From positions 1 to 39,378 of IMG/VR virus record IMGVR_UViG_3300021091_002693: 39,378 nt of DNA. One strand, written 5' to 3'. A model generated the notes under the pieces. The model made no database searches and had not been told where the DNA came from. It was given only the letters and a program-made list of their open reading frames with translations. This document shows positions 13,415-30,991 of the stretch, in pieces; position 1 is the stretch's first letter, and every line of letters begins with the position of its first letter. Position numbers and translations under genes: made by a program. The stretch is from a virus.

Positions 13415-14317
13415 TTATTTCACAACCTTTCCGCTAGTATTTAATTTAGGCGGTACTCCCGCGCGACTTATTTTGTTACCGAATTTTCTTGCGTCTTTTT
13501 TCATGGTATCAGGTCTGACATCTACTGTCAATGCTGTCTTAAATCTTGGGTCATTCTTTTCTTTTTCGCTAGGTATATAACCGCTTGCATTTTCTGCCAT
13601 GCTATTTTCTAAACTTAATTTCTCGCTACGCAACTCATTTCGTAGGTCATATAATTTTTGAAACAAACCTTGTTTGCGTATTGCTTTGAATGCTAGGTTC
13701 TCAGGACCAAACTCCCCTGTCTTTTCTAATCCTGCTTTACGATAACGCCTAACAATATCAAGTGCTTTATCTATACGGTTTAGGCTTCTTGTTTTAATCG
13801 CTAGTTCTATCAACTCTCCTAACTTCTCATACTTCGCTCTTGTAGCAGACTGATCAAAGTTGGCTCTGCGCTTGACCGGCATCTTGATCCAGTCTTTTTT
13901 AAGTACGCTATATTCGCCGAGGCTATGATGCGGCTGGTTGCTGTCTTGCACATACAGTTCTACAGGGACGCCGCGAACCTTGATATCATGGTTATCGTTA
14001 TATACGGTCTTTTTTGCATTGAATAATTCTTTGTATACTTCATCATCGGGTAACTTATCATAATCTACTAACAGATGTAAGTCTAGATCACTATGCGGAG
14101 TATATGAATAAGCAGCATTGCTGCCACTTATAGTGATGTCTTCGACTTTAAGACTGCTCAAACCAAGATAAGCCATGAAATCTTTTGCGATATCCATGAG
14201 CCTGTCATGAACCTCAGTATCTAATCTACCCTTGTCGGTCCATAGTGCAGGGTTAAGTTTATCGTGGAACTTAACAGCATCGGCTAAGTTAAAACTCTCA
14301 AGTTCTTTAATATCCAT
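13415..14317 (-). CDS. Pol-beta-type nucleotidyltransferase-like protein
   Basis: A 300-residue protein. The N-terminal domain has ISGSNAAYSYTPHSDLDLHL: the GS (65-66) and D78/D80 pair typical of the nucleotidyltransferase superfamily that transfers nucleotides to RNA, protein or small molecules. After a helical middle part comes a C-terminal tail with ASGYIPSEKEKNDPRFKTAL, a segment I recall from other phage proteins. The ATG lies exactly where transcription should begin from the TATAAATA box, so the message is probably leaderless; no Shine-Dalgarno sequence is present. The acceptor molecule is unknown. Confidence 0.75.
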   Translation of the reverse strand: MDIKELESFNLADAVKFHDKLNPALWTDKGRLDTEVHDRLMDIAKDFMAYLGLSSLKVEDITISGSNAAYSYTPHSDLDLHLLVDYDKLPDDEVYKELFNAKKTVYNDNHDIKVRGVPVELYVQDSNQPHHSLGEYSVLKKDWIKMPVKRRANFDQSATRAKYEKLGELIELAIKTRSLNRIDKALDIVRRYRKAGLEKTGEFGPENLAFKAIRKQGLFQKLYDLRNELRSEKLSLENSMAENASGYIPSEKEKNDPRFKTALTVDVRPDTMKKDARKFGNKISRAGVPPKLNTSGKVVK

Positions 14318-14322
14318 AAGAG

Positions 14323-14330
14323 TATTTATA
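14323..14330 (-). promoter_or_regulatory. Late promoter TATAAATA before the nucleotidyltransferase gene
   Basis: Exact T4 late consensus TATAAATA on the minus strand, followed by CTCTT and then the ATG. With the usual 5-base distance from box to start, +1 is the A of the start codon. The box also overlaps the T-rich tail of the tmRNA terminator, a very compact junction. Confidence 0.6.
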
Positions 14331-14333
14331 AAA

Positions 14334-14357
14334 GGAAAGGCCCCTAGGGGCCTTTCC
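14334..14357 (-). terminator. Rho-independent terminator of the tmRNA gene
   Basis: Perfect 24-base palindrome GGAAAGGCCCC-TA-GGGGCCTTTCC followed on the minus strand by TTTT. It lies 40 bases after the tag stop codon, where the tmRNA transcript should end. Confidence 0.85.
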
Positions 14358-14662
14358 GACTATTGGTTTATAAGGCGTCACCCCCATCTAGCCTTGTTTA
14401 GGCGGCTAGAGCGTAAACATCATCGTTTGCGTTTACTTTGTTTTGCTAGAATTACGTTCTTCGCCTATCGGACTGTCTGTTTGGCTACTACTTGCCCTGT
14501 CGAAACTATTCATCCCCGTTGACTCTGCATAATCAAAATTTTTATTCCATTCCCGCTCTGTAAAAAACAGATTGCGGGGCAAATCTACAACTCTACTGGT
14601 GGAGATGGCGGGATTCGCACCCGCGTCCAAAGCATCGTTCCCCTCACTTCTTACAGTCATAT
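14358..14662 (-). ncRNA. ssrA: Circularly permuted (two-piece) tmRNA
   Basis: Read on the minus strand, the acceptor part comes first: a T-arm GCGGG-TGCGAAT-CCCGC and the 3' acceptor strand CATCTCC followed by ACCA (CCA ends at 14597). A 79-base intervening segment with a strong hairpin follows (CCCGC/GCGGG and TCTGT/ACAGA arms, 14552-14578). The coding part then begins at 14517 with GGGGATGAATAGTTTCGACA, the normal tmRNA 5' signature. GGGGATG pairs with CATCTCC over 7 bp (one G-U), proving the circular permutation. The tag frame (14398-14430) lies in this part, and a stem CTAGCC/GGCTAG encloses its stop. tmRNA rescues stalled ribosomes and marks peptides for proteolysis. Position 55 of the T-loop is G instead of U. 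The outer boundaries of both mature pieces are estimates. Confidence 0.88.
14398..14430 (-). CDS. tmRNA proteolysis tag ANDDVYALAA
   Basis: The resume codon GCA is followed by AAC GAT GAT GTT TAC GCT CTA GCC GCC TAA, giving the ten-residue tag ANDDVYALAA. It keeps the conserved AND start and the YALAA end recognised by ClpXP-type proteases, and differs from the E. coli tag (ANDENYALAA) at two positions. The usual resume GCA and upstream AGTAAAC region are intact, so the phage tmRNA should be functional. Confidence 0.88.
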   Translation of the reverse strand, partial: ANDDVYALAA

Positions 14663-14677
14663 AAACCTCTACAGAAG

Positions 14678-14685
14678 TATTTATT
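14678..14685 (-). promoter_or_regulatory. Candidate late promoter of the tmRNA
   Basis: AATAAATA on the minus strand, one base from the T4 late consensus, lies about 15-20 bases before the estimated 5' end of the tmRNA acceptor piece and overlaps the stop region of the small gene upstream. It would allow the tmRNA to be made late in infection. Confidence 0.4.
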
Positions 14686-14905
14686 CGCTTTGGCTAACAA
14701 ACTCGTTTAGTTTCTTTGCTTCAGCAATAATATCTTCAGTAGTAGGTGCATTTGGCATAGTTGGAAACAATGCATTAGGATTTACATCCCTAGCAGCGTT
14801 CCATTGCATTTCTAGATTTGATCTTTCATAAAAGTATGGCTCAAAGATACTTTCTTTGGCCAATCTTAATAGATCCAAACGGATCTCGTATGGTGATTTG
14901 CTCAT
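14681..14905 (-). CDS. Small phage protein (MSKSPYEIRLDLLRLAKE)
   Basis: 74 residues from the ATG that follows AGGAGGTAATT, a near-perfect ribosome site; an upstream in-frame ATG would encode a less likely MLIKHTYTQEV extension. The protein is helical at the start (PYEIRLDLLRLAKES), has a central EMQWNAARD, a proline-rich stretch (FPTMPNAPTTED), and ends AKKLNEFVSQSE. I recall small phage proteins starting SPYEIR...L in T4-like marine phages, with unknown role. The tmRNA follows directly downstream. Confidence 0.7.
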   Translation of the reverse strand: MSKSPYEIRLDLLRLAKESIFEPYFYERSNLEMQWNAARDVNPNALFPTMPNAPTTEDIIAEAKKLNEFVSQSE

Positions 14906-16453: not shown

Positions 16454-16825
16454 TCATATAGGCAATTCACTCAATCCATGTTCGCGGTCAAGATACTTCA
16501 TCTCTATCTTAACGGGCTTCCATTCTTTTAGTGCTTCTACTACATGATATGGATCTAATGGGCCACATGTATAGACATCCAATTGCATCAATGCAGGGTC
16601 TGACTCGTCCCATACATGTAATGCGACATGGCTAGTCTCAATGATGCTAACGCAAGTGATTCCGCGATTTCCCTTGACATCCAGATACTTTGCAAAGGGA
16701 CCCATCAATAATTTCATACCTATATTATCAATAAGATTACTTACCCAGATTTTAACACCTGCTTCAGTCATAGGAGGGTTTTTAACTTCAGCACGAATGA
16801 TTAAGTGTTTATGAAATATTGCCAT
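16454..16825 (-). CDS. speD: S-adenosylmethionine decarboxylase proenzyme (SpeD-like)
   Basis: A 123-residue bacterial-class AdoMet decarboxylase, which makes decarboxylated SAM for spermidine synthesis in the cytoplasm. The self-cleavage/pyruvoyl serine is S65 in ETSHVALH, with H70 and C87 (DVYTCG) as the conserved processing and proton-donor residues. The length matches the short SpeD form. The glutamate usually just before the serine is replaced by Thr, with Glu one position earlier, so processing may be altered. GAGGT overlaps the stop of the giant repeat gene 6-7 bases before the ATG, so the two genes are coupled. speD is a known auxiliary metabolic gene of marine phages. Confidence 0.85.
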   Translation of the reverse strand: MAIFHKHLIIRAEVKNPPMTEAGVKIWVSNLIDNIGMKLLMGPFAKYLDVKGNRGITCVSIIETSHVALHVWDESDPALMQLDVYTCGPLDPYHVVEALKEWKPVKIEMKYLDREHGLSELPI

Positions 16826-16836
16826 ACTAAATTACC

Positions 16837-19800
16837 TCATTTATATTTGTTTCTATAATAATCTTGTAGCCAGGACCATTCATAGGATTTTTTTAATTCT
16901 TCTATATCGCCCATAACATTATCGTAATATTCTACAGCATCTTTAGCGCCTTGTATACAACTATCGGCATATGCTCCTTTTGCTATTGTGGTCCATATAT
17001 TTAATCTTTCAAGCGCAATGTCAGCATAATCGCTTTTCAATTTTATAACTTCTCGGAAGGCAGTGCGCCAAGTACTATACGCATCTGTATTAAAGTTTGC
17101 AATGCCTGATAGAATGTCTATAGATTCATGTGGATCATCAAGCGTGAAGTCTAGTCCTTTGCCAATATTACCTAATGCTAATTTTTTATTATATGCGATC
17201 ATAGCCTGATGACCATATATCAATTCATTGACAGGATTCTTAGCTGTAAAGATATAATGTTTAGGTATCTGTAATCTATCAGGTTGCCAACTAAAATCAA
17301 AATGTTCATTGATCTTTAGTTTAGCAAACACAGTAAACATCCAGGGCGTATTGCTTGCTTCTGCTGCTGCGTGATATGCTGATACACGACCATTCACACC
17401 ATCTACCCTCACTACCTTATTGGGTAAATGCTTAGTAATTTTTAATAGATGTTTATAGTTATCTTCAGCGCAACTTTCCCCATTGCTCAGGAACACTATG
17501 TCTAGTGGCTTAGATTTTACTATGCGTTTTGATTTTGCTATATATGGATAATCATACAACTCATTATCAACATATAGTTTCGCTTCTTTTGGCAAGGTAA
17601 GAATCGTGCCACCTGTGCTTAATATTTCAATATTCTTAGTATGATCTGCCCATAAACACAGGGGCTCATCATAATTTACTGATACTTCACTATTATCAAT
17701 AGTCTTAAAGATAGCATAGGGAAAATCAAATTCTTTTTTGACTGAATCGATGTTAGTTTCATTATCTAATATAAACTCAGGAGCCTGCAATCGTTTAGTT
17801 CTGATATGATTATTATAGTTTATCTTATCATAATCTTCCAATAAATTCATATCATCAACCAGACTCTTTAATTTATTAACATCGATTAAGAATGTATCTC
17901 CGAACTTTTGTTTGTCGCTAGGAAACACATGTAGGTTTTCTTTAGCGAACGGGTCGCAGATATAAGTCATATCAAAGTTTTTATAGTCACATACTGAACT
18001 ACAGACCCATATATGATTGTCTTTAAGTTTCACTAAGGACAATATATCCTTGAATGATTGCAAGTAACTCTTGTTATATGGAACTGTGATTACATTCTTA
18101 CCTGTGGATTTGCTAGTCAACTGTTCGCGGATAATAGCAGCCTCACTATTACCATGATCTATCAGATAGATATCATATAGGCAATTAGTGGCTTTAGCAG
18201 TACGGTTCTTAACAAAGTTTAGATTGCTTAGATGTTCAATGATCTTGACATATTTTGTGTCTTCAGGGAATGTGTCCTTGTTCAACAAGTATGTAGTTCC
18301 CCAATGACTCCATTGCGTACCAAACACATGAACCATCTTTAATTGCCATGGGTTAGGATAATACTTGAAGTCGAAATTACTATAATCTAATTCGCTATTT
18401 AATATCCAAGTAAGTTGAGTAGTGCTTCTGTTCAGGCAACGGTATATAGTGTCTACCCAACTGTTTAGATATCGTGTCTTTTGTATGCCAGGGAATCGTT
18501 CTTGTAGTTTTTCAAATCTTTCTTTGGCTTCAATGTTACCCCTGTCAATCATAAAGATATCAGGCTGTATGAATAAGTCGGCTAGATATTCACTCTCTGC
18601 TTTGACATCACCTGTGACGAAATTAAATTGCGTGAATCCTTGCTTATATAGTTTGCTGTTAACGAAATATGTTTGTGTCTCTACTGCATCAGGACTACCG
18701 AACACATGTACAAATCTTGCTTGTTCAATGTTTGGACGCCAGCTGAAATTAAAACTACTGTAGTTGATGTTCTTATTCAATGCCCAGAACAATTCATCAA
18801 CATGTTGTTCTATCAAATCTTCAAGTGTAGTCTGTATATAATATTTAGGAATCTCCACGAACTCGCTATCGTGCTTTTTTGTCACACGCTGTATTTTGAT
18901 GATCTCGCCGTTGTTACTTTTAGTCTTGTATATAGGGCCATCATTGTCATCAAACAATGTGCCGAACTGATAGATGTATGGGGGACTGCCTGGATTAGGT
19001 CTCCAACTAAAATCAAAATCATCAGTATTGATGCCTTCTGGTATGACCCAGTTAGTCATATCGCTAACGACCTCTGCTGTGATATCATGTATGTATTTTC
19101 TCTCAGTAGCATTCTTTACATGATATTCTAATGTTGGTTCTACTTCGCTAGTATTCCACTGATTACCGAACACATAGATATAGGGAGGGCTAGTAGGATC
19201 AGGCCTCCAACTATAATCAAAGTCGCTTCTGACTTTGATCAACTCGCGCCACTTATTATAATCAGGCAATACATTAGCAACTTGCAGCATGTACTTCTTT
19301 TGTATAGCGCCCTTGACACGATATTCTAATGTTGGTTCTATCTCAGCAACATTCCACTGATTACCGAACACATAGATATAAGGTTCATCATGTGGATCAG
19401 GAACCCAACTATAATCAAAACTTGTTCTATCTACAGGTATGATCTCTGTGAATCTATCGTAGTTCTGTGCTAGTGTCGCTACAAACGAATTATCATATTT
19501 GTAATCGGTTGCTCCGCTAACTCTATACAATATAGTAGGCATCTTTTCTGCTGAGTATTGAGTGTTACCAAACGCATAGATGTAAGGTTGTTCTTTAGGA
19601 TTGGGTCTCCAACTAAAATCGAAACTATCTTCTATGATAGGATGTAATATCTTAAAGTTATTCTTGTTAGGCAGTACAGTAGCAACGATGTCATCTATGT
19701 ATTTGTATTCAGTAGCACCGGGAACGACATATTCTAATGTAGGTTCTACGCTGGCTATGTTCCACTGATTACCAAACACATAGATATAAGGGGGAGCCTT

Positions 19801-22800
19801 AGGATCAGGTACCCATCCATAATCAAATTTTGATTTATCTACGGGTATCTTTTCTACCCAGTGTGTCATGTTACTGGCTAATCTGGCTTTGACATCATCT
19901 ATGTATTTGATCTCAGTAGCACCATCTACTACATAACGAACAGTAGGCATGACTTCACCTGGATACTGCGTATTGCCAAACACATATATGAATAGATCAT
20001 CATATGGATCTGGCCTCCAACTAAAATCAAACTCGCTCTCTATAATAGGCAGTAACATCTCAAATTTGTTTTTATCTTGTGCTACTTTGCCTATGATATC
20101 ATGGACATACTTTATCTCGGTTGCGCCAGGTACATGATATTCAACTGTAGGTTGTTTCTCTGCACGATTCCATTGATTGCCGAACACATAGATATAAGGA
20201 GGTGCTTCCGGGTGTGGTACCCAACTAAAGTCAAAACTATCAGGCTCTAATCTAATCTTAACTTTAAAATTCTTATTGTCAACTAGTGTCTTTGCTTGTA
20301 TATCTTTGATATATTTCTTTTGTGTAGCATTATGTGTATGATATATAGGACCGCCTACATCATTCCATACTGTAGCGAACTCATAATCATAAGGTTCCTC
20401 TGTGCTATCTGGATGCCAACTGAAATCAAAACTATCAACATCTATATTACTAGGTATCTTCCAGTTAGTTTTATCAGATAATTTTATAGCGTGTTGAACA
20501 TCTACATACTTTGTCTCAAATGCATCTTCTACGATGTATCGAGGACCATCAGTCTTTTGATGTTGTGTACCAAACTCGTATATGAATGCAGGTTCAGTAT
20601 CATCTGGATGCCAACTGAAGTCAAATTCAGTTACATCTAAATCTTTAGGTATTATCCAATTTGATTTATCAGATAATCTTACAGCCTTTTGACTGTCAAT
20701 ATACTTGACTTCTGTTGCTCCCTCTACTGTGTATATCGGTCCGCCCGTCTTTTGCCATTGTGTACCAAATTGATAGATATATGGTGGACTTCCCGGGTCT
20801 GGTAACCATTCAAAATCAAATTTATCTAAGTCTATATAACTATTATAACGCCATTTAGTCATATCGGCAAATGTTTTTGCTACGATTGTGTTGACATATT
20901 TTAATTCTGTAGCACCCGGCATGACATACTTGATGACAGGCATGACTTCGGCACTATACTGCTCATTACCAAATACGTAGATATACGGTTGTTCAGTATT
21001 GTCTGGATGCCAACTATAATCAAAACTTTTGATTTTTATGACACATTGCCAGTATAGCGATGTAGGTTTCGCCTTTATTTTATCACTATACACATACTTG
21101 ATATCATTTGCGCCGTCTACCACATATCTAGGCCCACCGTTATTTTGATGCTGAGTGTTAAATTCATATATATAAGGTTCGTCATGTGGATTAGGTATCC
21201 AACTATAATCAAACTCACTATCATCAATATTATCAGGTGTGATCCAATGTGTTTTATTTTGTGCTAACTTAGCAACTATATCCATGATATATTTTTCTTT
21301 GACAGCGCCCGGCATACGATATTCAATAGTAGGCATCTGTCTAGCATCATGATGCTGATTACCAAAGATATAGATATAAGGTTCTTCTGTATTATCAGGA
21401 TGCCAACTGTAATCAAATGATTCTATGGAATGATCAACTAATATCCTAAAGTTTGTTTGATCGGGTAATCGTTTAGCAATTATACTTTCAACAATTTTTA
21501 CCTCAGCCGCTCCAGGGACGATATATCTAGGGCCACCATTCTTTTGATGTTGAGTACTGAACTCATAGATATAAGGAGGTTCAGTGTCGTCTGGATGCCA
21601 ACTAAAATCAAAGTTTGTAATGTCTACATCATCAGGTACTTGCCAGTCAGCAATATTAGGTAATTTTTTAACTTTTTGAAAACTTATAAATTTAAGTTCT
21701 GTTCCACCTGCTACTGTATATCTAGGGCCGCCGGTCTTTTGATGTTGCGTTCCAAACACATAAATGTAGGGACCATCTTTTTCATCAGGATGCCAAGTAA
21801 AATCAAAATCACTTATATCTATACCTAGTGGTATAGTCCAATTGTTTGATATTTCTGATGTAATAATAGTCGCTTTTTGCCCTTTTACATATTTGATATC
21901 AGTGGCCCCAGGTACTACGTATTTAGGTCCCCCAGTTTCTTGCCACTGTGTACCGAACTCCCAAATATAGTTAGGTTCCAATGGGTCAGGTCGCCAAGTA
22001 AAATCAAAACTTTTTATATCGATGTATTTAGGTATCTCCCAGCGATCATATTCGGGTAATACAACCACATCATCGGTCATATATTTGATTTCTGTTGCGC
22101 CAGGAACGATATACTCAATTGTCGCTTTATATTTGTTGCTGATATATTTGTTGCCCCAACGATAGATGTAGGGTGGATCATTGGGATTTGGTATCCAACT
22201 AAAATCAAACTTGTCTTCGTCAATATCTTGAGTTATGACCCAATGTGTCTTATCTATATCCAATGTGGCTACTATGTCTGAGACATATTTGATTTCTACT
22301 GCGCCCGGGACTACATATTGTATTGTAGGCATATCTTCTGCCTTATACTGATTATTACCGAACACATAGATATATGGTTGTTCATTTCTATCAGGGTGCC
22401 AACTATTATCAAAATGTTTTATCTTAACATTTTCATTGATTAGCCAGTTCGTTGTTGTAGGTAATGCTATTGCTATTTGACTATCAATATACTTTATCTC
22501 AGCAGCTCCCTCGACTACATATCTAGGGCCGCCTGTCTTTTGCCATTGTGTGCCAAACTCGTATATATAAGGTGGGTCTTCTACACCCGGATGCCAACTA
22601 AAATCGAACCCTGTAGTATCTACATCCTCTGGAATATTCCAGCGTGTCTTATCTGCTAGGGCGATTGCTTTTTGTACATCGATATATTTTTTATCAAATT
22701 TTATAGCATCTTTGACTTTATATACAGGACCACCTGACTCAGCCCACTGTGTGCCGAATATATAATTCATAGGTGGTGCATTACGCTCTGGATGCCAACT

Positions 22801-24372
22801 GAAGTCGAAACTATTCTGATCTATGTAATAAGGTATTTCCCAATTAGATTTATCAGGTAATGCTTTTGCTTTCGAGCCCGACACATACTTTATATCAACA
22901 GCATCCGGGGACTCGATATACTTCGGTCCGCCATCTTTCTGCCATTGTGTGCCAAACTCGTATATATAAGGTGGGTCTTTGGGGTGCGGTATCCAACTGA
23001 AGTCGAATGTTGATACATCGATATTTTCATCAACATGCCAGCATTCTTTCTTAATACCAATCGAGACTTTTACAGTGTCAATGTATTTGTATTCTGTAGC
23101 ACCTTCTACTACATAATGTAAAGTAGGCATGATTTCGCCTGAATAATATTGATTACCGAACACATAGATATATGGCTGCTCGCTAGTATCAGGGTGCCAA
23201 CTATAGTCGAAATCAATGATAGGAAAATCTGTGACTACTCTGAACTTATCTTTTTGCGGCAGATGTTTTACGGATCGATCATCAATATACTTTATCTCAG
23301 TAGCATTCTCGACTACATATCTAGGGCCATTTGTCTTTTGATGTTGTGTACCGAACTCATAAATGTAGGGCGGGTCATTAGGATTAGGCTCCCAACTATA
23401 ATCAAAATTCTTGTCATCGATAGTAAGAGGTACTGACCAGTTTGTCATGCATGGTTTGCGTACTACACGATCATTCATGTACTTGTATTGAGTGGCACTC
23501 TCTACTCTATAGACTACACTTGCTTTATCTCTTGGATCATTGTATTGATTACCCCATGCATAGATATAAGGTGGCGCGCCTGGATCTGGACGCCATGTAT
23601 AATCCATACCTGTGCAATCTTCATATATCTCAAATAACTCAGGCTTTGATTTCAATTTAGCATGCCATGCATTATCGATATACTTTCTTTCAACTGCACC
23701 TTCTACGTGATATTCTATAGTAGGCATCTCTTCAGCACGATAATGCTGATTGCCCCATACATAGATATATGGAGGATGTGTAGGATCCGGTACCCATGCC
23801 CAGTCAAAACTATTATCGTCTACTTCATGTATTATCTTGTAATTGTTTTTGTTAGGTTTTAGTTCTACAAACTTATCCATGTACTTGTAGTCAGTAGCAC
23901 CGGGTACATGGTATTCAATAGCAGGCTTGCTAGTAGCAGGGAAATATCTACAACTCCAAGCATAGATATAGGGAGGGTCAGTGGGATCGGGGTACCAACT
24001 AAAATCAAACAACTTTTCATCGACATCATAATTCAATACCCAATTATCAGACCTGCTTACAGTCCTTAATAGTTCAGGTACATCCTGTCTGTATATTATG
24101 TTGCCGCCTGTGTCTTTAGCACATAACCAAGTACCACTATCTTTATTATGCTGACTGGGCCAAACGTTATCATGTTCCCCTGTCCATACTTGATCATCAG
24201 GCAAGAACTCAAAATCAAAATCCCAATCAAAATTTGTATAGTCACAATATTCGTTGACTATCCAAAAATGTTCAGTTGTGGCTAATTGTCTAGCCTCGTT
24301 TAAATCTCTAGCAGGCTTTTCTAATGGATGGACGTTGGTTTTATTGCCGAAGTAGAATACATCTCTTAACAT
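16837..24372 (-). CDS. Giant FDFSW-repeat protein with glycosyltransferase-like C-terminus
   Basis: 2,511 residues. Residues about 122-1875 are some 26 tandem repeats of 65-68 residues with the core F-D-[FY]-S-W-x-P-(D/N)-(P/D), then PPYIYxFG(T/N)Q, then GATEIKYID and a closing W/F. The N-terminal 121 residues (HFWIVNEYCDYTNFDWDF) carry a related WxxN..DY.NFDWDF unit, and repeats 28-31 are longer and diverged. The C-terminal about 300 residues (DIVFLSNGESCAEDNY, then NTPWMFTVFAKLKINEHFDF) resemble a GT-A-type glycosyltransferase-like domain containing one FDFSW unit. The repeats therefore probably arose by duplicating a segment of that domain. No signal peptide or membrane segment. Role unknown: glycan binding or modification, or an adhesion or virion component. 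The ends are intact and no frameshift is seen. Confidence 0.85.
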   Translation of the reverse strand: MLRDVFYFGNKTNVHPLEKPARDLNEARQLATTEHFWIVNEYCDYTNFDWDFDFEFLPDDQVWTGEHDNVWPSQHNKDSGTWLCAKDTGGNIIYRQDVPELLRTVSRSDNWVLNYDVDEKLFDFSWYPDPTDPPYIYAWSCRYFPATSKPAIEYHVPGATDYKYMDKFVELKPNKNNYKIIHEVDDNSFDWAWVPDPTHPPYIYVWGNQHYRAEEMPTIEYHVEGAVERKYIDNAWHAKLKSKPELFEIYEDCTGMDYTWRPDPGAPPYIYAWGNQYNDPRDKASVVYRVESATQYKYMNDRVVRKPCMTNWSVPLTIDDKNFDYSWEPNPNDPPYIYEFGTQHQKTNGPRYVVENATEIKYIDDRSVKHLPQKDKFRVVTDFPIIDFDYSWHPDTSEQPYIYVFGNQYYSGEIMPTLHYVVEGATEYKYIDTVKVSIGIKKECWHVDENIDVSTFDFSWIPHPKDPPYIYEFGTQWQKDGGPKYIESPDAVDIKYVSGSKAKALPDKSNWEIPYYIDQNSFDFSWHPERNAPPMNYIFGTQWAESGGPVYKVKDAIKFDKKYIDVQKAIALADKTRWNIPEDVDTTGFDFSWHPGVEDPPYIYEFGTQWQKTGGPRYVVEGAAEIKYIDSQIAIALPTTTNWLINENVKIKHFDNSWHPDRNEQPYIYVFGNNQYKAEDMPTIQYVVPGAVEIKYVSDIVATLDIDKTHWVITQDIDEDKFDFSWIPNPNDPPYIYRWGNKYISNKYKATIEYIVPGATEIKYMTDDVVVLPEYDRWEIPKYIDIKSFDFTWRPDPLEPNYIWEFGTQWQETGGPKYVVPGATDIKYVKGQKATIITSEISNNWTIPLGIDISDFDFTWHPDEKDGPYIYVFGTQHQKTGGPRYTVAGGTELKFISFQKVKKLPNIADWQVPDDVDITNFDFSWHPDDTEPPYIYEFSTQHQKNGGPRYIVPGAAEVKIVESIIAKRLPDQTNFRILVDHSIESFDYSWHPDNTEEPYIYIFGNQHHDARQMPTIEYRMPGAVKEKYIMDIVAKLAQNKTHWITPDNIDDSEFDYSWIPNPHDEPYIYEFNTQHQNNGGPRYVVDGANDIKYVYSDKIKAKPTSLYWQCVIKIKSFDYSWHPDNTEQPYIYVFGNEQYSAEVMPVIKYVMPGATELKYVNTIVAKTFADMTKWRYNSYIDLDKFDFEWLPDPGSPPYIYQFGTQWQKTGGPIYTVEGATEVKYIDSQKAVRLSDKSNWIIPKDLDVTEFDFSWHPDDTEPAFIYEFGTQHQKTDGPRYIVEDAFETKYVDVQHAIKLSDKTNWKIPSNIDVDSFDFSWHPDSTEEPYDYEFATVWNDVGGPIYHTHNATQKKYIKDIQAKTLVDNKNFKVKIRLEPDSFDFSWVPHPEAPPYIYVFGNQWNRAEKQPTVEYHVPGATEIKYVHDIIGKVAQDKNKFEMLLPIIESEFDFSWRPDPYDDLFIYVFGNTQYPGEVMPTVRYVVDGATEIKYIDDVKARLASNMTHWVEKIPVDKSKFDYGWVPDPKAPPYIYVFGNQWNIASVEPTLEYVVPGATEYKYIDDIVATVLPNKNNFKILHPIIEDSFDFSWRPNPKEQPYIYAFGNTQYSAEKMPTILYRVSGATDYKYDNSFVATLAQNYDRFTEIIPVDRTSFDYSWVPDPHDEPYIYVFGNQWNVAEIEPTLEYRVKGAIQKKYMLQVANVLPDYNKWRELIKVRSDFDYSWRPDPTSPPYIYVFGNQWNTSEVEPTLEYHVKNATERKYIHDITAEVVSDMTNWVIPEGINTDDFDFSWRPNPGSPPYIYQFGTLFDDNDGPIYKTKSNNGEIIKIQRVTKKHDSEFVEIPKYYIQTTLEDLIEQHVDELFWALNKNINYSSFNFSWRPNIEQARFVHVFGSPDAVETQTYFVNSKLYKQGFTQFNFVTGDVKAESEYLADLFIQPDIFMIDRGNIEAKERFEKLQERFPGIQKTRYLNSWVDTIYRCLNRSTTQLTWILNSELDYSNFDFKYYPNPWQLKMVHVFGTQWSHWGTTYLLNKDTFPEDTKYVKIIEHLSNLNFVKNRTAKATNCLYDIYLIDHGNSEAAIIREQLTSKSTGKNVITVPYNKSYLQSFKDILSLVKLKDNHIWVCSSVCDYKNFDMTYICDPFAKENLHVFPSDKQKFGDTFLIDVNKLKSLVDDMNLLEDYDKINYNNHIRTKRLQAPEFILDNETNIDSVKKEFDFPYAIFKTIDNSEVSVNYDEPLCLWADHTKNIEILSTGGTILTLPKEAKLYVDNELYDYPYIAKSKRIVKSKPLDIVFLSNGESCAEDNYKHLLKITKHLPNKVVRVDGVNGRVSAYHAAAEASNTPWMFTVFAKLKINEHFDFSWQPDRLQIPKHYIFTAKNPVNELIYGHQAMIAYNKKLALGNIGKGLDFTLDDPHESIDILSGIANFNTDAYSTWRTAFREVIKLKSDYADIALERLNIWTTIAKGAYADSCIQGAKDAVEYYDNVMGDIEELKKSYEWSWLQDYYRNKYK
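18747..24009 (-). repeat. About 26 tandem coding repeats of ~200 bp
   Basis: The DNA behind the FDFSW repeats: units of 195-204 bases, alternating between two subtypes. One reads FGNQ...MPT.EY (14 copies), the other FGTQ...GGP.Y (12 copies). The units are well diverged in DNA sequence, so they are old duplications under protein-level selection, not recent expansions. Confidence 0.85.
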
Positions 24373-24385
24373 GCATTTACTTATT

Positions 24386-25021
24386 TCATAATTTTATTTG
24401 GTAATAATTATTTGTGCATTTATCCAGTGAATTATTTTGTATAAATTTACTTAAAAACGATGCGAGTAGCGTGTTTTCGTAGGAGCTGAAATGGTTTGGA
24501 TTTGAGTTCCAGTTAGACCAGTCCTTAATTGGCTTCACTGCGTATCTACTGCTTAATGACAATAAATCCGGTTTAAATTTTATGCCGTTTAATTTTGATG
24601 ATATTATTTCAGTATCCTTAAAACAGAATAGGTGTATCACATTTTTATCACTGACAATGTTATTTAGTTCATCAAACCACTGTATCATCGACCATCGATG
24701 AAAAGTTTCATCGTAAATATATTTCATGTAAAAATTATAGATTTCTTCTCTTTTATCAGCATCCTCAAAATACATTTGACTATTATGTATTCTTGCTACT
24801 TCTGTGTGACAAAATACGAAAATTTTAGTGTCATCAAATTTCTGTTTATTGAGATTTTTATATCTTAATAGATCGTTTCTAACCGGCCACCAAGAACTAC
24901 CCGGAAACCCCTGACCGGTTAATTTTAACTCTAACTCATTCGCTAGAATCAATGGCCAATCAGTGGCAGGATTTTTCCTACTGTAGCAAAAACTATCTCC
25001 GCTCACATAGATATAACTCAA
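24386..25021 (-). CDS. SGNH-hydrolase-like protein
   Basis: A 211-residue protein starting at TTG, which overlaps the carbamoyltransferase stop (TTGA); no ATG exists before the first motif. Block I is YVSGDSFCY (serine about residue 10), then GQGFPGSSWW, and FCHTEVARIHN. A late NPNHFSSYENT could give the catalytic His, although the usual D-x-x-H is not clear. A second copy of the same subfamily is encoded at 35336-36076 (GDSF, GKGFSGASWW, HTECQRIPS). SGNH enzymes often add or remove O-acetyl or other acyl groups from glycans. It follows a carbamoyltransferase, which also decorates sugars. Confidence 0.65.
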   Translation of the reverse strand: MSYIYVSGDSFCYSRKNPATDWPLILANELELKLTGQGFPGSSWWPVRNDLLRYKNLNKQKFDDTKIFVFCHTEVARIHNSQMYFEDADKREEIYNFYMKYIYDETFHRWSMIQWFDELNNIVSDKNVIHLFCFKDTEIISSKLNGIKFKPDLLSLSSRYAVKPIKDWSNWNSNPNHFSSYENTLLASFLSKFIQNNSLDKCTNNYYQIKL

Positions 25022-26499
25022 CTTATTACCCTAAGATTATAAAGTTTTTCAAAACGGTCAGCATCAATACGATCATTGACCATAGGCTCTCCGCGTATGT
25101 TTAGACTTGTATTCAATAGCATAGGACAACCTGTCTTATCATACCATGCTTCTAAGAGTTGTCGAATCCCAGATCCATCTTTAGGAACAGTCTGTACACG
25201 GCTAGTACCGTCATGATGAACAATAGCGGGATAAAGATCAGGATGCCTACAAGTAGCGATGACTTGCATATACCTGCTGTCATACCAGCCGCGAGGCATA
25301 ATAAAATACTCATTAACATATTCTTCTAGAATGACCGGTGCGAACGGTCTAAATTTTTGTCTACGTTTGATTTCATTGACTTTATCCTTTATCTCGGGCC
25401 CTCGTGGATCTGCTAACAAACTACGATTACCTAATGCGCGAGGCCCAAACTCTGCTCTACCGCTGGCAACTCCTACCATCTTATTATTTGTTAATTCGTT
25501 AATAACTTCTTTAACTGGATATGGTCCTTTAATATCTGTACCTAAGAACGCATCACGCCAATTAATCTTTTTGCCATATCCCAATGCTGCTGCACCGAGG
25601 CTGTTACCTGCATCGCCCGGATTAGGCATGATCCATATATCATGAAAGTATTTGCCTAATAGTCTATTAGCTAAACAATTCAATGCTACGCCTCCGCCAT
25701 ATACAAGATTCTTACTTTTGCCCAAACGTTTGGCTCTCATCATAACTTTTTCAATCAATATTTCACAAACAAGTTGTGCGCTTGCTGCGATATCCATGTC
25801 ATCTGCTTTGCTTAAATAATTGTCATCAACACCTATATGTAGATTTGATTTAAAGTCAATATTTTCAATATTTTCAAGCAGGTTGCTTGCCATGCGTTGA
25901 GCATAACTTGGCTTACCATATGCAGCCATACCCATTAAAATATATTCTTCGTCCATAGGACGTAAGCCTACCCGTTGTGTCATAGCACTATAGAACATGC
26001 CTATGCTATTAGGATATTTTTTGCTCCATAATTTCTTATATCGTGCATTATCTTTATCATCATACCATGCATCCCAAATAGTGATACAGTCCATTTCACC
26101 GATAGCGTCAATAACTACTACTGTAGCATCTGTAAATGGACTTGTTTGAAAGCCTGCTGCTGCATGAGTTTTATGATGAACATGTGTTTTGATTGGTCTG
26201 TCACCAAACATCTCATAAAGTTCGGGACCTACAATCTGCTTCACGCTTAATGGACCAATCGGTTGTCCTGCACGAAATTGGCGTAATGCTTTTAGAAGAG
26301 GTTTTTCATAATAGTGTAATTCAAAATTACTATCAACAAAATAGGAATTTGCTTCTAGAATTAATTCTTTACAAAGGTTAGAATCATGTTTTTTCTTACT
26401 ATATCTTTCACTATGTGCAGCAAATAGTATATTGCCAGTATCACTAACAATACTAAGTCCTGCGTCATGAAATCCGCAACTTAATCCTACATACATCAT
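25018..26499 (-). CDS. Carbamoyltransferase (NodU/CmcH family)
   Basis: A 493-residue enzyme of the O-carbamoyltransferase family, which moves a carbamoyl group from carbamoyl phosphate to a hydroxyl of a sugar or antibiotic through carbamoyl-AMP. Kae1-like N-terminal motifs: LSCGFHDAGLSI, AHSERYSKKKHD and the metal-binding HHKTHAA (about 107-113). C-terminal ATP/transfer motifs: YGGGVALNCLANRLL, GRAEFGPRALGNRSL and NTSLNIRGEP. Length is somewhat short of the usual 550-600 but both domains are complete. Carbamoyltransferases of this type are known in marine T4-like phages, with unknown acceptors. The start follows a 32-residue gene by 3 bases. Confidence 0.88.
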   Translation of the reverse strand: MMYVGLSCGFHDAGLSIVSDTGNILFAAHSERYSKKKHDSNLCKELILEANSYFVDSNFELHYYEKPLLKALRQFRAGQPIGPLSVKQIVGPELYEMFGDRPIKTHVHHKTHAAAGFQTSPFTDATVVVIDAIGEMDCITIWDAWYDDKDNARYKKLWSKKYPNSIGMFYSAMTQRVGLRPMDEEYILMGMAAYGKPSYAQRMASNLLENIENIDFKSNLHIGVDDNYLSKADDMDIAASAQLVCEILIEKVMMRAKRLGKSKNLVYGGGVALNCLANRLLGKYFHDIWIMPNPGDAGNSLGAAALGYGKKINWRDAFLGTDIKGPYPVKEVINELTNNKMVGVASGRAEFGPRALGNRSLLADPRGPEIKDKVNEIKRRQKFRPFAPVILEEYVNEYFIMPRGWYDSRYMQVIATCRHPDLYPAIVHHDGTSRVQTVPKDGSGIRQLLEAWYDKTGCPMLLNTSLNIRGEPMVNDRIDADRFEKLYNLRVIS

Positions 26500-28739: not shown

Positions 28740-29723
28740 TTAAGAAATCGGTAAATTAGCACTTTTTGTGCTCCAAAGTTTCTTATCAAACAAAGTAATA
28801 CTATGTATCTTGCTGTCCAAAAATTCAAACCAATCAATCTCATCTAAATTTGTAATATTGCCTAACGGATATCTGTCAAGTGTTTTATTTGAGAATTTTG
28901 ATTCTTCTCTGAATTTTTTAGTATTTAATATCTTGGTATATATTTTGTGAGGGTCGAATGTTACATTTGGAGTCATTAATAAGTTTCCAGTGATATCAAA
29001 TTCATGTAAATTATCATAATCTAACCAAGCCTTCATTTGGTCTTTTCCAGTTATATCTTCGTGCAACCATACAGTGGCATCCAATAATTTATGATTACTC
29101 TCAATAAAAAAATCAAAACCGCCTGCTTCTATAAATTCTATATTATCTTGATCAAACACCGAATTTTCTTTTTTCAACCAGTTTAAATTATTTGCATTAG
29201 TAAATTGAACACTATATTGTTTTACATGTTTATAATGCTGCCTTCTAGGTAAACGCATATAAGTCCAACCTTCTAAATGATGGGTATAGGTGTTTATATC
29301 TTGTATAACTTTGAACAATTCACTAGGATCTATCGTACTTGGAATTTTTTCTTCTTTCAATAAAAAGCGATGTTCACTTATAGTAAAAATTCTATGCCAA
29401 TCGTTTAAATGATATTGAAGAACGTCCTGGGGAAACGCTATCAATCTTTCGATTTCAAGTATTTCTTCTCCGTAATTTCCCAGTCCGTTGTTGTTTAAAA
29501 AACGAAGGCAATCTCGTATCTTAAGCAATTTATATACATTTACTTCTGCCGTGAGGCCAGAACTAACCGAATTTAACTCCGCTGTATACCACTCAATATT
29601 TGGACATTTATAAGATAACTTTTGTAAGTAATCTGTCCAACGTTCTACAAAAGAGTAATCAAACAGTTCAATGTTTATTTTTTTGTTTACTGATTCTTTA
29701 GTTGTATAGGTGTAACTTAACAT
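28740..29723 (-). CDS. Unrecognised 327-residue protein
   Basis: I do not recognise this protein. It is soluble, acidic, and rich in aromatic residues: FDYSFVERWTDYLQKLS, EWYTAELNSVSSG, HHLEGWTYMRLPRRQHYKH, then EAGGFDFFIESNHKLLDATV and VWLHEDITGKDQMKAWLDYD. The conserved-looking H/W/D residues in DATVWLHEDITG suggest an enzyme or binding domain. The gene overlaps the GT-like gene by 7 bases and precedes the radical SAM gene by 44 bases, so it belongs to the same pathway unit. No function proposed. Confidence 0.6.
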   Translation of the reverse strand: MLSYTYTTKESVNKKINIELFDYSFVERWTDYLQKLSYKCPNIEWYTAELNSVSSGLTAEVNVYKLLKIRDCLRFLNNNGLGNYGEEILEIERLIAFPQDVLQYHLNDWHRIFTISEHRFLLKEEKIPSTIDPSELFKVIQDINTYTHHLEGWTYMRLPRRQHYKHVKQYSVQFTNANNLNWLKKENSVFDQDNIEFIEAGGFDFFIESNHKLLDATVWLHEDITGKDQMKAWLDYDNLHEFDITGNLLMTPNVTFDPHKIYTKILNTKKFREESKFSNKTLDRYPLGNITNLDEIDWFEFLDSKIHSITLFDKKLWSTKSANLPIS

Positions 29724-30991
29724 AATTCTATAAACCTCGTATAATCATCATATTGAAAATATAAATTTTTTGGGTATGCCGCATTGTTAATAAAGAATTC
29801 TAGATTATATTGTGCTATTACGTCACAATTTTCTACCAAACTATTAAAATCTGTTGTATTATTGTTACGCATATTTTTTAAACGCACTAACTCTTTTACT
29901 ATAGCCAATGTACGTTCAGCATCATTTTCAATATTGTCGTAGGATTCATCTACATAACCATTAAAAGTTTTAAAACCTAATTTGCGAAAACTTTTAAGCA
30001 TACCACTAGCAGCTAAAATAATTACTGGTTTTCCTAACGCTATAGGATTGAAGGTTTTTTCGCTTAGAAAATGTTCTCCAAACCATCTTGTTTCTGATAC
30101 CACTTCAAAAATACTATTAATTCTTGCTTTTAACATCGGCATTTTTAATTCTGTTTGTGTTAATGGTTGATCAGTATGAGTATACTTACTTCTATCATCA
30201 ATTTTCAATGGATATATACTTTTTAACTTTTCTAGGTTATTAAGTATTTGCTCACTATCAGAGAGTTGATTAATATAATTTAAACAACCATATTTTATCG
30301 TACTAAAATCATTTTCTGGATCATAATTATATTTGGTCTTAGTTGGACTACTAATATAACCATCGTCTATTAAATTATAATGATTTAGTAAAGCAATAAG
30401 TGCTAGTCTATGACTCCAAGCATTCCAGTTGAATGTACAAAATAACTTTTTATTTTCAAATGTTAATTCTTCAATTGCTTCTTTTGGTAAAGCATAATTT
30501 TTATTATCTATCTGAAAAAACAAAGGACTTCCGTTATACTTACAAATCATTTTTTGTGTCTTGTTATATTTTTTACAAAATTTATCATAACATTCTTCTA
30601 TATTAACTGACCCGGTTGTATAAACTATCTTACCTTGCAGTTGTAAAAGATCAATTATGTTGTGCAATGCTTCAAAAAAATCGTCTTTGGCCCAACCTTC
30701 TGTATAACTACAAAAAATTGTTGCTCCATTGACATCAACATTAGGATAATGTATTTTTTGTTTATTGTTAATGTCAATTAAATTATTAGTTATATCTATA
30801 ATACATTCCATTGAATAACCATCTGTACAAAAAACATTATCAAATCCACTAATTTTGTTAGTTTCAATCCTTGAGGAAAAGTATTTTGCAGTTTCTTTAT
30901 TTTTTTCAGTGAGGATATCAAGATTTTTTGTAACCATTAATGCCCAATGGTTATCAGTTCGATGATATTCATTTACTAAAGATGCTAACAT
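29717..30991 (-). CDS. Glycosyltransferase-like protein (GT-B/exostosin-type C-terminus)
   Basis: A 424-residue protein. The C-terminal third has WFGEHFLSEKTFNPIALGKP, then VIILAASGMLKSFRKLGFKTF and YVDESYDNIEND. This SEKTF.PI..GKP..I.G pattern marks the nucleotide-sugar-binding region of exostosin/fucosyltransferase-like GT-B enzymes seen in marine phages and giant viruses. The N-terminal two thirds are not recognised. It overlaps the prolyl-hydroxylase-like gene by one base and the unrecognised gene by 7. Likely transfers a sugar onto a phage or host-surface acceptor; donor unknown. Confidence 0.65.
   Translation of the reverse strand: MLASLVNEYHRTDNHWALMVTKNLDILTEKNKETAKYFSSRIETNKISGFDNVFCTDGYSMECIIDITNNLIDINNKQKIHYPNVDVNGATIFCSYTEGWAKDDFFEALHNIIDLLQLQGKIVYTTGSVNIEECYDKFCKKYNKTQKMICKYNGSPLFFQIDNKNYALPKEAIEELTFENKKLFCTFNWNAWSHRLALIALLNHYNLIDDGYISSPTKTKYNYDPENDFSTIKYGCLNYINQLSDSEQILNNLEKLKSIYPLKIDDRSKYTHTDQPLTQTELKMPMLKARINSIFEVVSETRWFGEHFLSEKTFNPIALGKPVIILAASGMLKSFRKLGFKTFNGYVDESYDNIENDAERTLAIVKELVRLKNMRNNNTTDFNSLVENCDVIAQYNLEFFINNAAYPKNLYFQYDDYTRFIELC

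Follow-up and report, generated by a model that had tools for sequence, protein, structure and literature searches.

How does a phage gene come to encode a protein that consists mostly of copies of one short segment, where was this segment taken from, and what might the product do? The questions are raised by the repeat gene P0001, which lies at positions 16837..24372 on the minus strand of a 39,378-base virus record (the whole stretch of DNA analysed, hereafter the window). A preliminary description of this DNA had given the same coordinates and a protein length of 2,511 aa, both of which proved correct, and had derived the repeats from the protein's own C-terminal domain, read as a segment of a catalytic domain multiplied into a solenoid.

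Architecture of the repeat protein and fold of its domains

Exploring the protein sequence, we found FDFSW-type motifs of 26 canonical units between residues 122 and 1786 at a spacing of 63-68 aa, bearing out the earlier estimate of about 26 tandem units. The motif [FM][DN]x[..][WFY]xP occurs 30 times in the protein; in 1,000 shuffles it appeared 0.03 times on average and never more than once. The units (63-68 aa each, about residues 107-1838; 18859..24054, minus strand like all parts of the gene) follow an N-terminal domain (residues 1-106; 24055..24372) that carries the motif FDWDFDFEF, and precede three longer copies absent from the preliminary description, to which the unit is related most closely. 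In protein order these are long unit 1 (residues 1839-1932; 18577..18858; FNFSW at 1874), delimited by secondary structure and by its similarity to long unit 2 (hhalign E 1e-15), long unit 2 (residues 1933-2062; 18187..18576; FDFKY at 2000) and long unit 3 (residues 2063-2200; 17773..18186; FDMTY at 2133). A linker region recognised from the secondary structure of the model (residues 2201-2287; 17512..17772) leads to the C-terminal domain (residues 2288-2511; 16840..17511), with FDFSWQPD at residue 2358. The unit-like segments reported earlier for both termini are present, but as parts of larger homologous domains. Given that near relatives are found on other IMG/VR contigs and that dN/dS is about 0.05, an assembly artefact was ruled out as the source of this open reading frame.

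AlphaFold2 models built from family alignments reached pLDDT 87.5 and pTM 0.74 for residues 1-426, and pLDDT 89.2 and pTM 0.60 for residues 1569-2511. Structure comparison of long units 2 and 3 and the C-terminal domain with GT-A structures gave Z 10-12 (about 10 for long unit 2, model residues 367-497, and about 10.8 for long unit 3, model residues 496-630); the end-domain matches comprised B4GALNT1 (Z 12.0, rmsd 2.9, 141 residues) and many glycosyltransferases (GTs) and nucleotidyltransferases at Z 9-12. The N-terminal domain matched B4GALNT1 with a modest Z of 6.0 (rmsd 2.9, 98 residues; model md4b04fd55b40), and its placing among GT-A domains is independently supported by its homology to long units 2 and 3 (hhalign E 1e-14 to 1e-15). 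Together, the models predict a GT-A fold, common to glycosyltransferases and nucleotidyltransferases, for the N-terminal domain in shortened form, for long units 2 and 3 as full domains and for the C-terminal domain, which folds like a glycosyltransferase as the preliminary description had held. The GT matches of the repeat-bearing N-terminal model fall on the N-terminal domain, outside the unit region; the repeat region itself had no confident structure match beyond two relatives of the same family, which is no proof of a new fold.

The family alignments revealed a metal-binding DxD motif in none of the tested domains, whether N-terminal, long or C-terminal. The position is occupied by xAK or xGK in 65/65 aligned rows of the C-terminal domain (FAK in the window protein), by xSE in long unit 2 (here NSE), mostly by SSI or SSV in long unit 3 (here SSV) and by NE(F/H/Y) or other residues in the N-terminal domain.

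Origin of the unit and its copy number in relatives

Profile-profile alignment of the unit with the second half of long units 1, 2 and 3 gave E 1e-8 to 1e-13, where the best of 40 column shuffles each reached 0.003. The unit matched the C-terminal domain only locally, over 24 columns (E 3.5e-5, with 0.006 as the best shuffled value), and long unit 2 is related to the C-terminal domain in its front part (E 1.4e-5). In the AlphaFold2 models the unit retains the strands from the DxD position on and is without beta1-alpha1-beta2-alpha2, the nucleotide-binding half. This front half is found in long unit 2, long unit 3 and the C-terminal domain and is missing from all 26 units; long unit 1 is intermediate, with one front-half helix kept and beta1-alpha1-beta2 missing. 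Each unit thus appears, from these alignments, to be the back half of a GT-A-like domain. Because the unit shares its ancestry with the corresponding segment of GT-A-like domains, the idea that a GT-like segment was multiplied into a solenoid stands; its qualification as catalytic does not, the C-terminal domain with xAK or xGK at the DxD site being no recognisable catalytic domain. Derivation from the C-terminal domain is probably wrong in detail, given E 3.5e-5 for that domain as against 1e-8 to 1e-13 for the long ones, and the likely template of the unit is the internal long domains. Parsimony suggests that the full domain came first and the truncated unit later, because the former is shared with cellular proteins and the latter is confined to phages.

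Searches with the whole protein returned nothing significant in Pfam, NCBIfam, PHROGs, PDB sequences or cultured phages (tblastn); a LAG1-DNAbind match (E 0.014) failed that family's cut-off. Residues 1856-2511 gave a chance-level match only in cultured phages (tblastn, E 2) and none among PDB sequences, and a literature search on the motif and the gene island found no description of the repeat family. No known family covers the protein, so that the repeat does not fall into an already characterised one, a possibility that the preliminary description had left room for.

Relatives were abundant in IMG/VR: a first scan gave 126 confirmed stretches, and another, based on the C-terminal profile, 386. 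Counting repeats per homologue in the 107 distinct complete proteins from uncultured large phages in which the N-terminal domain was present gave 0-33 units with a median of 10. Copy number changes fast between near relatives: pairs with 94%, 93% and 92% C-terminal identity carry 21 and 10, 3 and 12, and 33 and 22 units, respectively. At the lower end stands a protein of 358 aa (L159) consisting of the N-terminal and C-terminal domains and no units; canonical units are also absent from L156, L144 and L087, the last a 676-aa protein with several long domains. L159, L138 with one unit and L071 with 33 form a graded series. Some family members (L059, L145, L148, L121, L111 and L164) have no recognised N-terminal domain, the proteins of L059 and L148 beginning directly with a short unit, and in one contig region (L035 and L131) the repeat gene is broken into two ORFs near the C-terminal domain, possibly by a frameshift or an assembly error.

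The T4-type capsid protein Gp23 was found in 14 of 15 large genomes (320-364 kb). A Gram-negative-type porin gene is present in 12 neighbourhoods of the repeat gene and hints at Gram-negative hosts; the phage-borne copy at L007:21092-21970 matches Porin_4 at E 2e-18, and its cluster covers the 12 loci. A scan of genome contigs returned a single locus, L087, on a GTDB contig that is assigned to a Pacearchaeota MAG. This contig carries the repeat-free family member, a carbamoyltransferase and phage genes, and we read it as a phage contig because the neighbours match phage genes. The moraphages (PMC12619734) were considered as the lineage of the relatives and not equated with it, carbamoyltransferase and radical SAM genes being unmentioned there.

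Neighbour code of the array

In 1,006 pairs of adjacent units, direct-coupling analysis linked specific positions: those of the hairpin loop (35-44) in unit i are coupled to positions 20-24 in unit i+1, which follow directly on FDFSW. These couplings reached up to 9.6 sd, ten of them exceeding 4 sd; above this level one pair was found at i+2, none at i+3 and none in random pairs. The rule can be read by eye in one residue: a GGP-type loop in unit i is followed by His after W in unit i+1 in 334/379 cases across the family, as against 9/438 for other loops (odds 354, p 1e-163), and in 10/11 as against 0/14 cases within the window protein. The rows of unit pairs are related, so the p value overstates their independence; the lag contrast still holds, the family odds being 3-4 at lags 0, 2 and 3 (3.7 at lag 2). 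The beta-hairpin loop of unit i thus co-varies with the W-x-P-x loop of unit i+1, and neighbours are predicted to interlock. The restriction of the couplings to adjacent units, along with the loop-to-His rule, argues for an ordered solenoid with fixed neighbour contacts.

Gene neighbourhood and possible function

To characterize the setting of the gene, we compared 66 loci. The most conserved neighbour is a carbamoyltransferase encoded upstream of the repeat gene (Carbam_trans_N/C; 25018..26499, minus strand), with a homologue in 57/66 loci and adjacent in 29. A protein family without family assignment (29717..30991, minus strand) is near the repeat gene in 48/66 loci and adjacent in 28; searches of Pfam, PHROG and PDB gave no confident match to it. 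Between the carbamoyltransferase and the repeat gene the window has an SGNH-hydrolase-like protein (24386..25021, minus strand), so assigned by eye and without a family match. The speD-like S-adenosylmethionine decarboxylase (16454..16825, minus strand) lies directly downstream of the repeat gene here, and the earlier coupling of the two genes turned out to be incidental, speD being adjacent in 7/66 loci only. Further genes around the repeat gene encode radical SAM/SPASM proteins, a DegT aminotransferase, an epimerase and a 2OG-oxygenase. The window also carries a tmRNA called by ARAGORN (14307-14689, minus strand; tag peptide ANDDVYALAA), apparently phage-encoded, and showed no enrichment of the T4-type late-promoter motif TATAAATA.

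A stand-alone protein family that keeps DGD at the DxD site is homologous to the C-terminal domain: the two profiles align over 191 columns with E 8e-28 (hhalign), indicating that this domain is a DxD-less paralogue of the DGD protein. Polar residues N92, P93, Y99, D121, W148, R153 and E154 (A3 numbering) are invariant in the C-terminal domain and common to the DGD proteins. Stand-alone relatives are found on Streptomyces plasmids, beside GT genes, and in the phages, where they have a gene of their own (about 315 aa); the DGD protein is presumably an active glycosyltransferase. In 30/30 large related phages the DGD gene lies upstream on the same strand, roughly 8-31 kb away. Conversely, the repeat family is present on 17/20 DGD contigs, and on the remaining three, 10-17 kb separate the DGD gene from the end of the contig on the side where the repeat gene would be expected. 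Within the 39,378 bases of the window the DGD profile matches the repeat protein only, and by the spacing in relatives the DGD gene of this phage probably lies beyond the window end. One contig (G006, 299222-300793) has a 550-residue frame that matches the DGD family twice, one of the two matches containing an internal stop; it represents a second and perhaps decaying copy.

Our preferred reading, with a probability of about 0.45, is that the protein is a non-catalytic, length-variable solenoid made from GT-A-like domains that serves as an arm in a glycan-modifying complex. The array would form a fairly rigid arm that extends the reach of the flanking GT-A-like end domains or provides them with multiple sites for binding glycans or proteins, and changes in unit number would tune its length or valency. 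The protein would act in the cytoplasm, a location suggested solely by the lack of an obvious signal peptide by eye, together with the carbamoyltransferase and probably also the separate DGD protein of a surface-glycan island that might modify either the envelope polysaccharide of the host or the fibres of the phage itself. The glycan part of this reading is drawn mainly from the pelagimyophages, in which glycosyltransferases and radical SAM cassettes beside tail-fibre genes form a host-recognition cluster whose proposed role is modification of the host O-chain (PMC7029224). The island of G021 likewise comes after baseplate/fibre-type genes. The synteny of the repeat gene with the DGD gene and the carbamoyltransferase may go back to common ancestry within a single phage clade, not to a complex.

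The strongest rivals to a non-catalytic arm are a virion fibre and an active metal-independent transferase. As a virion protein, the array would be the shaft of a tail fibre or adhesin whose GT-A-derived ends bind a host glycan and whose unit number sets fibre length. The large, beta-rich protein and the fast change in copy number (21 as against 10 units at 94% C-terminal identity) fit such a role, as does the position of the island in G021, where baseplate/fibre-type genes (assigned by eye) on the same strand and a 6,605-aa ORF precede it. We nevertheless consider it doubtful, because an enzyme gene lies 3-14 nt from the repeat gene in many loci and the viral structure models matched were two uncharacterised relatives and GTs only; no known virion protein was matched by sequence, an absence that is compatible with a virion role. 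The long ORF of G021 (contig 206023-225838, L271-L272; 6,605 residues) is rich in Thr, Val, Gly and Ser and follows the baseplate-type genes, and most of the other large relatives likewise have open frames of some 4,800-6,600 residues whose PHROG match is similar.

Metal-independent GT-A enzymes exist, and loss of the DxD motif is no proof of lost activity. The C-terminal domain might accordingly be such a transferase, with the array as an acceptor-binding or processivity module: many of its invariant polar residues are those of the DGD proteins, a Lys stands at the DxD site in all aligned C-terminal homologues, and this Lys could form an active site with the conserved NPxN and WRTxFRE residues. 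Given that DxD is in no tested domain, that the units are without the entire nucleotide-binding half and that the same phages carry a separate DGD protein, we hold this to be of similarly low probability.

Comparison of individual units between species bears on two further explanations. Between the window protein and L005, dN/dS was about 0.05 in units and domains alike, and the units are under strong purifying selection. Reciprocal best units were mostly colinear (units 1-6 and 14-26 against L005, units 1-4 and 14-26 against L006), with gains and losses concentrated in units 6-13; they share 0.63-0.96 between species, as against about 0.37 for units inside one protein. Such individual conservation is what specific partners predict, and would suit a factor for counter-defence or host takeover that has nothing to do with glycans and reuses the GT-A fold as a protein-binding repeat; sugar-modifying enzymes are nevertheless the stable neighbourhood, and we regard this as improbable. 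Neutral expansion of repeats with no function of their own would fit a copy number that spans 0 to 33 and is most improbable in view of the dN/dS across units, their position-specific orthology and the neighbour code.

Whichever role applies, the proteins from two-domain and repeat-free through one unit to 33 units are an unusually complete series of part of an enzyme fold becoming a solenoid, and the one-residue neighbour code may help in understanding or designing repeat proteins. The DGD protein, the carbamoyltransferase and the pseudo-GT array make up a conserved, uncharacterised gene set in large water-borne phages, a pointer to how such phages may alter host or virion glycans. A bolder proposal, and an unlikely one, sees in the protein a new repeat-protein class: a neighbour-coded, length-adjustable rod of amputated GT half-domains that a phage polysaccharide-modifying complex would use as a molecular ruler or as a multivalent guide for glycans.

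Among known proteins the nearest are two from uncultured Caudovirales phages, A0A6J5L5L5 and A0A6J5LK21 (E 5e-100 and 3e-87, 33-36% identity), which by structure and sequence are members of one family with the window protein but differ in length (1,076 and 804 aa as against 2,511 aa). The DGD proteins of a Streptomyces plasmid (WP_030978560, 234 aa) and of the phages are homologous to most of the C-terminal domain; unlike the window protein with its FAK, they are single domains that keep DGD, have no repeats and are without a confident Pfam match. Human B4GALNT1, the SunS/ThuS glycosyltransferases, WrtF and K4 chondroitin polymerase have the GT-A fold as in the window protein, whereas they are active enzymes without half-domain repeats and share 5-12% identity with it; the two GT-A domains that K4 chondroitin polymerase has in tandem are a further likeness. 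The lysyl hydroxylase LH3 holds between its other domains a GT-like accessory (AC) domain that is thought to have lost its function (PMC6082870), which resembles the situation described here, but the AC domain is one full domain whereas the window protein carries a truncated and multiplied array.
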